64,000 nt of DNA from Centroberyx gerrardi (taxonomy: Eukaryota; Chordata; Actinopteri; Beryciformes; Berycidae), in the NCBI RefSeq assembly GCF_048128805.1, contig NC_135998.1, positions 26,481,896 to 26,545,895 of the forward strand, read 5' to 3'. Shown here piece by piece: positions 27,068 to 32,405 of the stretch (positions are counted from its first letter, which is position 1; each line of letters opens with the position of its first letter). The notes under the pieces are model-generated. The model had not been told where the DNA came from and did no database searches. It saw only the letters and a program-made list of their open reading frames with translations. The position numbers and the translations under genes were made by a program.

Positions 27068-30000
27068 TCATATCTCCTCCTCCTCGTCCTTCGTTGGGAA
27101 GATACAGCAGGTGAAGCAGCGCCTGATGGCCTTCAGAGCTCTGCTGAAGAAACGTTTGATTCCCTTCTTCTTTTTCTTCTTCTTTTCCTCCACAGGCGCC
27201 ACCTCATTTCCTGACAAAAGAAAATATTAAATATATGAATATGTTGTACATGTGATTTTGTAAATGTGCACTTTCACTGTAAGAATCCTTTCACTTAATG
27301 TCAGTCTAAACTGTTGATATAAATCTATCAAACATCAAGAGTTCTCACCGCTGTCGGCCAGAGGATCAGCAGGTTTCTCCACCGGGAGGTCAGTAGAGTC
27401 TGGAGCTCCATGCTCATCTGGCTGTGGGCTTCTGTTGGAGGAGGCCACTGCTGCATCTTCCCTCTGAGTGGCTGATGATGTCACTGCCGCTCCCTCTCCG
27501 TCACTGGGCAACGGTGGCAGCGCACCGCCTCTGCGTCTCTGTTCCCGGCACAGAAAGCTGTGCAGCTGCTTGGTCACAGCTGCGGCCATGTCCTTCCTGA
27601 CGCTCAGGATTCCCTGGACGTTGCTGTCTTTAGGATCCAAGCTCAGGAGTGTTGACAACGACAGAACGTTGGCCAAAGATATGCACTTATCCATCTCAGT
27701 GCCTGGTGCGTTAGCACCCTCGCATTGTGATATCCAGGCCAATTTCAGGAAGGTACTGTCCACCATTTCCATCGCCACAGCTGAGGGCGAGCTGGTCGAC
27801 AGCCTTTTAGGTGTCTCTGAATCGGCCTGGTTGGTCACACGCACCTTCTATAAAAACAAACAACAAAACCGTGACATTGCTTGGCATGTAGGAAACGGCA
27901 AGTTGAGTGATGAGATTTCGACACTTTTGAGGTCAGATTTTATAGGCGAGCCTCTTTATCATTTATTACAACAGCTGATTCTGGTGCCATGTTGAAAAGA
28001 CCTTCTGAATATACATCAAACCCAAAGAATTATGGAAAAACTGTTGGCTCTAGCCCTACTGCTTCAACCTACCATGCTCTCATCTCCACCGAAGAGGTCG
28101 GACCTGGCTTTGTTAATGAGGTCCAACACAGGCTGGACGCAGGAAGGCACTAAGGCGGAGGAGAAGTGCCGAGACAGCTTCTTCACGCGTGGATCCTGCT
28201 TTCTGACGTCGTCTTGTGCCGACTCAGGTGTATCCGGGCTCACCGAGAGCGGCTCGTTGTCACCGCTCAGCCTGGTCGCGCGCAGGACGCTGTTCTCCAG
28301 GCAGGAGAACGACGATGAGGACGAGGCCATCCAGCCAGAGGGGCTCCTCTTTGTCATGTGGTGGAAGACGGTGTTGATGATCTGGTAGCCGTAAGGTTCC
28401 AGTTCTGACACTTCGATCACTTTTTCCACCACAAACCTGCCAGGAGGAATCTGCATCTGCTGGGAGGAGTCGAGCTGCTCGACCGCTGCAGATACCTGTC
28501 GGTCTGTCCGCAGGACTGAGGAAAAATTACTGATGGAATTCATCACCACTGAATCAGATGAATCGATGGGTGAGGGAGAGGAAAGAGCTGATTTTTCTCT
28601 TCCAGGCCGCTCGTCCACCAAGGCCACATCAGGAGTCTCATGTAGGGACACCATGTAGGCCTCGGCATCCTTTTGGACCATCTCCTGGATCTCTGGGATG
28701 AATCTATACAGGAGAAAGCAGAACAGCAAGTGACTCATTTGTTCCAGTTTAAGAAAGGAGATGGTCTTCTCCTCCACTTTCTCTTTACCCCTGGTAACAA
28801 CAAGCAAATTGTACCGGACCAGAGCTGCATTACAGTTTCAAATGACTCTGTTTATTCTGTTTTTCTGTTGCCTGATCTTGTCTGGAACAACCAGTGGAAA
28901 ACTTGATGTATAAAGATGGCTGGCTCCTGGTTTGTCTCATAGTATAAAGTGTACGAATGATGATATCCACCCTTAGCTGTGTGGAAATAACTGGAAACAA
29001 TGTGTGCCCTTTGCATTGTGGGATTGGCACTGGAGGACCAAATGATGTCACTTTAGGAGGCAACCATCTTTATACACCTGGTCCACTGGATTTCCCCAAA
29101 TATGATTTGCAGTGTTTTACATTTTGGCCAGACTGTTGTTGTTTTGTTTTTGCAGATGCTGGTTACCAGTTACAACTGACACTTCTGACTGACTAATGGT
29201 CAAAAAGACACTAATTACACACCAACTCTCTCCTCCCCCTCCGTCCCCACAGAGCCCCATGTCACAGTCTACTCACATTTCAGGGAACTGGTCTCCGGTG
29301 AAATATTGATGGTTCATCATCTCAGAGCAGCTTGATCTGTTAGCAGGATCCATCTGGAGACTTGACTGAAAAACAACACAACTCTTAACTCTTCACATTA
29401 AAGACAGATGCATTACGCAGCACCAGAAAGATGCACTAGAGGTTGGTCAGCTGGTTTGCACCCCTACCACAAGATTCTGTAATGAAATTACTTTAATAAT
29501 AACCTACAACTGCTGTATTCACCAAGGAGAACCCATGGTAAAAGACAGACATCGATAATCCTGTCTGCATGGTAGAAAAGCCAATGAAAACAGCATCTAG
29601 ACCATGTTACACGGAAACTCAAATGAAATAGTTGCAGGACCACACTGTTTGTTCGGTGGCTGTACAGCCCCAGTTGTGCAGAAGAGAGCAGACTTACTTC
29701 CACCAGGTCAGCCAACAGGGAGTCGTACAGGCCGTACTTCTTCCTGGGGTCTTTGGGCAGCTTCACCTCAGGCAGGGTGAACGAGGAATATTTGGTGTCA
29801 TACAGCTGCATTTGGTGTGGGGTCAGCGGACCTGGCCATGACAAAGAAAGAAAAACCCAACAATGATCAAATAAACTGAACACTTCTCTAACACATAATG
29901 TCATATTGAAAGTGGACTAGAACCCTTCACTCCAGGATAGTGGATTGTTTATTTGATTTGCACATCATTGCAGCAGAAGAACAGAAAGTCAGAGAAAACA

Positions 30001-32405
30001 CCTTTCCTCATCATCAGTTGAGCACCATAGATGACTTATCAGCTGAGATATACAGTAGGCACATATACATTGGTCCCCATATTAAGTCCACTGGCCTAAT
30101 AAATGTCCACTGGCACTCAGCCATCAGGCTCACCACAAGACAGAGACTTTCATGATAGAGAAAAACACTGAAGCTGATTAGGAAGTCCAGTAGTCCCTCT
30201 ATCTTAAAGAAGAGGGACAGAGCATTTACAAAAAGTAGTGTGTCGCTGTACTGGGGATAATAAAGTTATCTGCTGCTGTTATTTTACCAACATCAGTGAT
30301 CTTTATTATCCAAGTCCATTTCCCACCACTGATGAACACACTCACCTACCATACATCTGCACACATTTCCATGCACACACTCCTGAGGTGAAGGACTACT
30401 TACCCACTTTCCTGACGATCTGATGCAGCTGATCGAGCTCTGACTCTCCACACAGGAAGACCGCACTTTTGGCCATGATCAGGATGGTGCAGCCGATGGC
30501 CCACACATCCACGGGTCTGGAGAGAGGAGAGAGCAGACAGGGAAACACCATAAGAACACAGATACGATTACACAGACGTGCTGTTCAGTCAAGTGTCTCT
30601 GTGTCAAAACCTAGAATTAAGTGCTTGACATTGTTACTAATCCTACACTGACACTGTGTGTATTTTGATTACTGACTTATTTTTCAATGCAAACTCTAGA
30701 TTACATTGTAGACCAATCTACAACCTACTACAAAAAGACTAAATCTAGCATCTAATCTAAGTCTACCATGTTGAAACAAGTGACAACAAAAGGAAATAAT
30801 GTAACGTTATCACCTCTTTCTCTCTAACAATAGAAAAGCCTAATTTCTCAGCAGGGTGTTGAAATGACATTATAAAAGAGGCAATAAGGTTACAATCTTT
30901 CAGTTGTTGTCACTCCAGCAGCATGGTGGCTTGTCCCTTGCAGCCATTGGTAACTGCTCTCCAAACACTGTGACAGGCCTCTGTACATCTCCTATGAGTT
31001 TTGATTTGAAGATACCCACTTGCTGTACATTGCGTCTCCCACCAGCAGCTCTGGGGCTTTGTACCACAGAGTGACCACATGGCCGCTGAGAGGAACTCCG
31101 GCCTCCGGCAGCGTGCGAGCGAAGCCAAAGTCGCACAGCTTGACCACACCTGAGCTGGAGACCAGAATGTTTTCTGGCTTGATGTCTCTGTGGATGATCT
31201 GGAGGTGGACAAAACAGTTTCAGAGCAGACCAACAAAACAACTCCTTTAGCAGTAACACATTCACCAAATCACAACAGTTTCTGCTTCATGAAAGCAAAG
31301 CAATGTCCAGATGTTTTCAGTAATATTTACATTGTTGGTGTGCAGGTAGTCGGCGGCTCTCAGGATCTGGAAGATGTGCTTCCTGAGCGGTGTCTTCTGC
31401 AGACCGTGAGGCTCCCTCTGCACCTCGTCCAGAAGGGTGTGGTCCATGAATTCAAACACCGCATGCAGATGATTTTTATGCTTGAAGACGTCCAGCAGCT
31501 GCACCAGGTTCTCATGGCGGCATTGCTGTTCAACAGAAAGACGCTCAAGTTGAACCACCAACATACTGTTTCAACTTTCAGCAACAATTCACTGTGCTGC
31601 AAAACTGCTAGCTACAACAAAGGGGCTTCATGATGAACTACTGCTGAGTTTGGATAAATTTAGCTGTGAGGTTTAAAAGTGGACAAGGTGATGTCACCCT
31701 GCACTCTTTCCTAATTCTCCTCAAAACTGTCACTGATGACACAACAGCAGTTCAAGTTTTACACATCAGTCCATTCAGACAGGATGCAAAATAACATCAG
31801 CATCAAGCTCCTATTTCACAACATGCTGAACCAATAATCACACCATTTAACAGTGTGCCAGTGAGACTTTGCATGTGATAATCCTGTCCCAAGTGACTGA
31901 ACCAACAGTTGATCTGACAATCATAGCAGCCTGATGCCTGTTTGTTAGGCTAGACCAGGTTAAAGCTCTTTGACTTTCTCAGCTCAGGATGCAAATGAAA
32001 AATTTGGTCTCACTGTGACACATGAAACCATATTTCTACACTAATATAGGACTCAACAACATGATAATACATGAAAGCAGATGAGTCAAAAACAGGGTGA
32101 CATGAGAATAAAGTAGAATAATAACTCAAATACACAAACCTCTCTGTAAAAATATGTTTTATCAGAATCAGAAACAGGCCTGTGACCGCTTTTGGGACCT
32201 GAGCCATAGCTTAAGAAACGCTTACCACCAGCAGCTTGAATTCCCTGTGTATAGTCTTGCTCTCGATGTAGTCCGTCGTATCTAAATATTTCTTAATGGC
32301 CACAATGTTTCCCGACTGCCTGTCTTGACACTTGTAAACTCTGCCATAGCCGCCTTGTCCGAGCACATTCAGTTTTAAATAGTTCTCCATCTTCTGTCTC
32401 TGGGT
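27068..32405 (-). CDS. CDKL-like protein kinase with long C-terminal extension (9 coding exons)
   Basis: Predicted serine/threonine kinase of the CDKL1/CDKL4 type. Coding exons (minus): 32226-32390, 31331-31525, 31020-31198, 30404-30516, 29698-29831, 29277-29365, 28073-28703, 27349-27847, 27068-27210; phases agree throughout, 715 aa. A CAG acceptor 15 bases before the ATG implies an upstream noncoding exon. Residues 1-291 are the kinase: glycine loop GQGGYG (11-16), lysine in VAIKK (33), HRDIKPEN (123-130), DFG (143-145), APE (168-170), DVWAIGC. The activation loop ([11 protein letters not shown]) lacks the TDY of CDKL4. Residues 292-715 match no domain I know: a Ser-rich acidic part, then seven lysines (678-684), [18 protein letters not shown] and an acidic end. 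The tail suggests membrane attachment by basic helix and acylated cysteines (inferred). The MITE lies just downstream. Confidence 0.9.

Follow-up and report, generated by a model that had tools for sequence, protein, structure and literature searches.

CDKL kinases are important in cilia and, in the case of CDKL5, in human epilepsy, and their mode of activation is not settled. They are described as proline-directed on the peptide tested and as having no known activating partners, and the alphaJ helix as required for the activity of CDKL2 and CDKL3 (PMC5846859). Most ray-finned fish have CDKL1, 2, 3 and 5, and CDKL C-termini are variable and poorly conserved, according to PMC12075339. The Takifugu kinome names a CDKL subfamily, and the accessible part of that account does not describe the gene studied here (PMC3359783). 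We analyzed a 64,000-nucleotide stretch of the Centroberyx gerrardi genome (hereafter the window; C2:26481896-26545895), whose minus strand carries a gene for a CDKL-type kinase with a long C-terminal tail.

As judged from sequence comparison, a single gene encodes the kinase domain, the alphaJ helix and the tail, and its copies combine them too, with the catalytic residues kept and the TXY motif of CDKLs replaced by S-x-H. We propose with moderate confidence that these copies form a duplicated kinase family of the CDKL3 lineage, whose product would be an active, membrane-held, proline-directed Ser/Thr kinase with no need for TXY. A branch that keeps the catalytic residues and alphaJ but lacks TXY in all its intact copies would offer a natural test of whether something else can stand in for TXY phosphorylation.

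Structure and lineage of the kinase gene

The gene runs on the minus strand from a start codon at 32390 to a stop codon ending at 27068. It comprises nine exons separated by eight introns, all GT-AG, and the exons join in frame to encode 715 residues followed by a stop. Exon 1 (32226..32390) provides the start codon, the glycine loop LGQGGYGRV, lysine 33 in VAIKK and the alphaC glutamate 50. The kinase domain continues through exon 2 (31331..31525), exon 3 with the activation segment (31020..31198), exon 4 (30404..30516) and exon 5 (29698..29831), and it ends in exon 6 (29277..29365), which also encodes the initial alphaJ residues. The remainder of alphaJ (residues 292 to 306) lies in exon 7 (28073..28703), followed by tail sequence with conserved blocks including VPSCVQPVL. 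Exon 8 (27349..27847) encodes a tail block with the conserved core KCIS.AN.LSLST and a 13-residue block, and exon 9 (27068..27210) a polybasic amphipathic C-terminal helix, a Cys cluster and the stop codon. With all introns GT-AG and a Pfam Pkinase match over residues 6 to 284 (E 1e-63), the original prediction of nine phase-matched exons encoding a complete CDKL-type kinase domain was borne out.

The predicted join between 29277 and 28703, by which the tail had been attached to the kinase, is correct, because homology to the alphaJ helix of CDKL2 and CDKL3, a feature of this subgroup, crosses the junction. The alignments with the human CDKL3 (3zdu) and CDKL2 (4aaa) chains reach residues 306 and 305, 14 to 15 residues past the 291/292 junction, and the residues beyond it match FMPELKAKLLQEAK and FSQELQLKVQKDA in the C-terminal helix of the human CDKL3/CDKL2 chains, arguing that an alphaJ helix follows the kinase domain. 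We scored each AG from the donor down to 26000 (252 sites) by what it would join in frame. The acceptor at 28703 scored 62 against the alphaJ helix, the runner-up scored 14 and the mean was about -30. The tail had originally been given 424 residues matching no domain; no known domain was indeed found in Pfam, NCBIfam or PDB, but residues 292 to 306 are alphaJ, and the unexplained tail therefore begins near residue 307. The tail exons look coding, because their third-position GC content is 0.66 against 0.28 to 0.43 for the GC content of the eight introns (third-position GC content, 0.70 in the kinase part; window GC content, 0.41). The open frame around exon 7 has 257 codons and is longer than any in 60 copies of the window simulated by a Markov model, where the maximum was 225.

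Ranking of solved structures placed CDKL3, CDKL2, CDKL1 and CDKL5 as the top four distinct PDB sequences, followed by CDKs; the domain, of the CMGC group, is thus nearer to the CDKL than to the CDK or MAPK kinases. The best match, human CDKL3 (3zdu, E 1.4e-100), shares the alphaJ region and aligns gap-free up to the activation loop. Over residues 1 to 286, 151 positions are identical in CDKL3 (52.8%), 134 in CDKL2 (46.9%) and 118 in CDKL1 (41.3%). Maximum-likelihood trees, in which CDKL4 was left out, fish CDKL1 and CDKL2 were partial exon pieces and the rows included CDKL chains whose TXY site carries a DXE change, joined the kinase with human CDKL3 (96/97 with 13 rows; 97/96 with 10 rows, without CDK1). 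Three groupings with CDKL2 were rejected (p 0.0103, 0.0272 and 0.0144). The comparison with CDKL1 and CDKL4 made in the original prediction was thus misplaced. The nearest relative by sequence is CDKL3 and not CDKL1/4, CDKL4 lying outside the comparison; CDKL1 is ruled out by the structure ranking, by identity (41.3% versus 52.8%) and by the tree.

CDKL2 (4aaa), present as one copy at C23:1.9 Mb, has the alphaJ region and VQKDA in common with the window kinase. CDKL1 (4agu; copies on C17 and C6) shares the CDKL kinase fold but falls in a separate tree clade. Unlike the window kinase, the CDKL2 gene and both CDKL1 genes of this genome retain TDY at the TXY position.

Copies, activation segment and divergence

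The family was searched in this one 779-Mb genome, and its counts are lower bounds. Tail exon 7 gave 12 match rows at ten loci, and tail exon 8 was found at nine places. Three loci lie on C2, at 26.51 (window), 25.19 and 25.56 Mb, the last without exon 8; one lies on C19 at 7.48 Mb (L022), and six form an array on C3 at 15.12-15.23 Mb. The anticipated family of kinases with the same tail therefore exists, in this genome at ten loci. This number is unexpected for the small CDKL family, of which ray-finned fish and tetrapods have a maximum of five members according to PMC12075339.

Exon mapping in the nine other loci showed that eight match all nine exons. A full open frame of 652 to 715 residues is present in seven of the ten loci (window, L021, L022, L023, L025, L026 and L028). 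In two of the broken copies, L024 and L027, exon 3 is truncated at an identical point (25 of 59 residues), and the third, L020, has lost exons 2-5 and 8-9 and retains exons 1 and 7 together with a portion of exon 6. Transferring the window model to the other copies does not always give an AG acceptor (exceptions are exon 8 in C19 and C3 and exon 9 in C19); exon starts may be shifted there, and the shift for exon 8 may amount to a single codon. Kinase exons adjoin exon 7 at all ten loci and exon 8 at all nine places, and no tail match was found in this genome away from the ten kinase loci, even when the diverged C19 exons were used at E up to 1. Within this genome, we therefore reject an origin of the tail from another gene.

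Each of the seven intact copies retains the catalytic lysine (K33), the alphaC Glu, HRD, Asn, DFG and APE. The P+1 stretch resembles VVTLWYRSPE of CDK1, whereas the human CDKL1-3 chains have VATRWYR, and R164 of CDKL3 is replaced by Leu. CDK2 also has VVTLWY at this place; both CDKs differ from the window kinase by lower scores (best E 1.7e-51) and by matches that end before alphaJ. Just ahead of this stretch, the TXY position is occupied by S-G-H in the window, L021 and L022 and by S-S-H in L023, L025, L026 and L028, that is, by S-x-H in 7/7 intact copies. By alignment, S158-G-H160 of the window kinase (31079..31087, minus strand) corresponds to T158/Y160 of CDKL3, as numbered in PMC5846859. 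The suggestion that the gene has regulation of its own thus gained ground, inasmuch as its activation site differs from that of normal CDKLs.

Searches with human CDKL3 residues 1-120 matched the family first, with the CDKL1 genes below most of its members. With residues 121-308, the C23 CDKL2, an unassigned C20 frame and the two CDKL1 genes ranked above the family. No separate TXY-bearing CDKL3 was found among the candidates scored (150 of 310, 150 of 165 and 150 of 399); because these are only part of the candidates and 2278 bases of N interrupt the C23 region, such a gene could still be present. A literature search found no title on a fish CDKL3 family that is expanded or lacks TXY, which is weak evidence of absence.

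CDKL2, CDKL3 and CDKL5 carry long tails, and the length of the tail alone is therefore not unusual. The tail yielded nothing significant against Pfam, NCBIfam and PDB. Matches that were below threshold or inconsistent among members were set aside, namely RDD1 (0.023/0.058), DUF2336 (0.037), Jas_motif (0.032), MBD_C (0.044), Rod_cone_degen (0.11), TepP (a bacterial model, 0.16) and Cdt1 (0.75). The tails of human CDKL2 and CDKL3, in provisional versions of their sequences, show no similarity to it past alphaJ, that of CDKL3 being unrelated (best BLAST E 4.5). Collections of viral and bacterial contigs gave only a 35-residue match in a compositionally simple part (L002, a bacterium), which we took as chance. 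Within the family, blocks of the tail are conserved between branches, and one of 13 residues is unchanged in 9/9 exon-8 copies; residues 326-350 are unconserved (0/25 columns in the window, L022 and L023). The tail contains nine SP/TP sites versus 5.4 in shuffles, a number reached in 129 of 2000 and thus not significant.

The ratios of nonsynonymous to synonymous substitution rates (dN/dS) between the window, C19 and C3 branches were 0.49, 0.50 and 0.39 over the kinase domain together with alphaJ, whereas the tail gave 0.61, 0.61 and 0.67. Values of at least 1 occurred in 0, 4 and 0 of 1000 bootstraps for the former and in 1, 4 and 17 for the latter. As dN/dS is below 1, strong positive selection overall is argued against. 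Synonymous divergence (dS) was similar in the kinase (0.26-0.35) and the tail (0.24-0.34), as expected if both were copied together. For the window and L021, dN/dS was 0.61 and 0.42. Among the copies of the C3 array, three pairs had kinase values of 0.56, 0.42 and 0 and tail values of 1.18, 1.03 and 0.15, with at most nine differences each, too few to weigh.

Between the C2, C19 and C3 copies, divergence is on the whole greater in the coding exons than in the aligned introns, synonymous sites included. BLAST-aligned introns of the window were 91.1% and 92.0% identical to those of C19 and C3 (1834 and 2404 of 3175 bases), beside 83.7% and 85.5% for the kinase exons and 83.1% and 85.0% for the tail exons. 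Global alignment gave 86.6/88.4/91.2% for introns, 83.7/85.5/83.7% for kinase exons and 79.5/83.0/83.9% for tail exons (window-C19, window-C3 and C19-C3, respectively). Introns 1, 5, 7 and 8 are 90-93% identical in the window pairs, and the adjoining exons 74.5-86.6% in 12 of 14 values. Counter to this pattern, some pairs have introns 2, 3, 4 and 6 as low as 72-88%, exons 3, 4 and 6 reach 84-92%, and the 300 bases past the stop are only 53-75% identical. The recent pair, window and L021, has no exon excess (exons 97.4-98.0%, introns 97.2%, by BLAST). Without CpG-like contexts the gap narrows but persists, at 86-90% identity for exons and 91-94% for introns. With CpG excluded, second codon positions differ at 6.4-10.8%, and fourfold sites, of which there are only 20-35, at 3.7-15%. 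The exon excess may result from diversifying selection or from faster mutation of the GC-rich exons.

Proposed mechanism and competing explanations

In the mechanism that we favor, the protein would be an active proline-directed Ser/Thr kinase, held at the plasma or ciliary membrane by its polybasic, probably palmitoylated C-terminus. Phosphorylation of TXY would be dispensable, with the alphaJ helix maintaining the active shape, and the conserved blocks of the tail would bind partners or substrates. Given that the copies change fast, the partner surface is probably moving too. A bolder proposal is that this is a lineage-specific, TXY-less, membrane-tethered CDKL3 family under diversifying selection, its kinase and tail exons outpacing the intervening introns in the manner of arms-race gene families, and that it replaces the ordinary CDKL3 in this fish; it is tentative and rather unlikely.

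Several points weigh against the favored mechanism. The trees that place the family with CDKL3 have just 10-13 rows and a long branch (0.67) leading to the family. PPP2CA, the neighbor of human CDKL3, is absent near C2:25-26, C3:15.1 and C19:7.5 Mb, as judged with this one marker in a provisional sequence. Its strongest matches are on C8, C11 and C16, and weaker ones (47-73%) on C2 at 29.08 and 29.59 Mb lie about 3 Mb from the window. By this one marker, the synteny expected of a CDKL3 orthologue is thus missing, and the multi-copy window kinase differs from human CDKL3 in this respect as well. Constraint is weak, because dN/dS is high for a kinase, its tail value is 1.0-1.2 in two of the three array pairs (only 5 and 9 differences), and three of the ten loci are broken. 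Lastly, the TXY motif that CDKLs contain is needed for their activity according to PMC5846859, and therefore the kinase, having lost it, could have low or no activity.

The C-terminus is probably a palmitoylated membrane anchor, as predicted from its composition. This candidate anchor covers 29 residues (27104..27190, minus strand), and a related lysine-rich C-terminus with Cys is kept in 9/9 copies that have exon 9, including those on C19 and C3. In the window protein, the 11 scanning windows with the highest hydrophobic moment all fall within the C-terminal helix (moment 0.89). Many calmodulin-binding peptides are amphipathic basic helices, and the same highly amphipathic helix could bind calmodulin instead or act as a nuclear signal. 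A calmodulin-regulated or nuclear kinase, which would be compatible with the other readings, is possible though on the whole unlikely: cysteines are conserved right behind the helix (CFTCC, CFARC), and in our judgment these residues and the C-terminal position better fit a palmitoylated anchor.

Pseudokinases usually lose some catalytic residues, whereas the lysine, the alphaC glutamate, HRD, Asn, DFG and APE persist in every intact copy of this family, and its P+1 stretch stays close to that of CDK1. We thus doubt that the protein is a pseudokinase or scaffold whose fold only binds partners while the tail does the work, even though a neighbor of the catalytic loop varies among copies, and TXY, needed for CDKL activity according to PMC5846859, is replaced in all seven intact ones.

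It is improbable that the loci are decaying CDKL3 duplicates with little function left. The three broken loci, the greater divergence of coding exons than of aligned introns, and the tail dN/dS (0.61-0.67 between branches, rising to 1.0-1.2 in two pairs of the array that differ at few sites) would agree with decay. In contrast, seven of ten loci have a full open frame, the 13-residue block is unchanged in all nine exon-8 copies, and dN/dS between branches is below 1, a value that no more than 17 of 1000 bootstraps attained or exceeded in any of six tests. Finally, an in-frame Met in the open stretch ahead of exon 7 would allow the tail to be a gene of its own, next to a kinase gene that stops near 29270, but we give this split virtually no credence, since alphaJ homology spans the junction, the tail was found only beside kinase exons in this genome, and an unspliced kinase would stop directly past the donor and lose alphaJ.

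Surroundings and other kinase-like frames

The kinase gene lies within the S100Z-F2RL1 block, as had been proposed. On one side are exons at 13525-13394 and 16692-16555 that we take to be S100Z-like, from comparison with a provisional S100Z sequence, and on the other side are frames at 44905-45996 and 49724-50821, presumably of PAR-type receptors. With a further one at 54547-55830, three such frames stand in a row on the minus strand, two of them very similar by eye, which suggests a local F2RL1-type duplication. Open frames at 34153-36828 (minus strand) resemble what we take to be a BEL/Pao-type retroelement polyprotein, and a single frame of 303 residues at 39297-40208 (plus strand) looks like cholesterol 25-hydroxylase. 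Several palindromic TCTCGTTATAACGAGA-like repeats lie just downstream of the kinase gene (26330-26860).

Other kinase-like frames appeared among the scored candidates. Twelve equal-score matches at C23:10422497-10469919, each with an 810-codon frame and spaced by a constant 4282-base step, show that a long kinase-like frame is repeated there in tandem. Eleven further equal-score matches with 335-codon frames, distributed over C2, C7, C15, C21, C23, C24 and C47, are perhaps carried by a mobile element.

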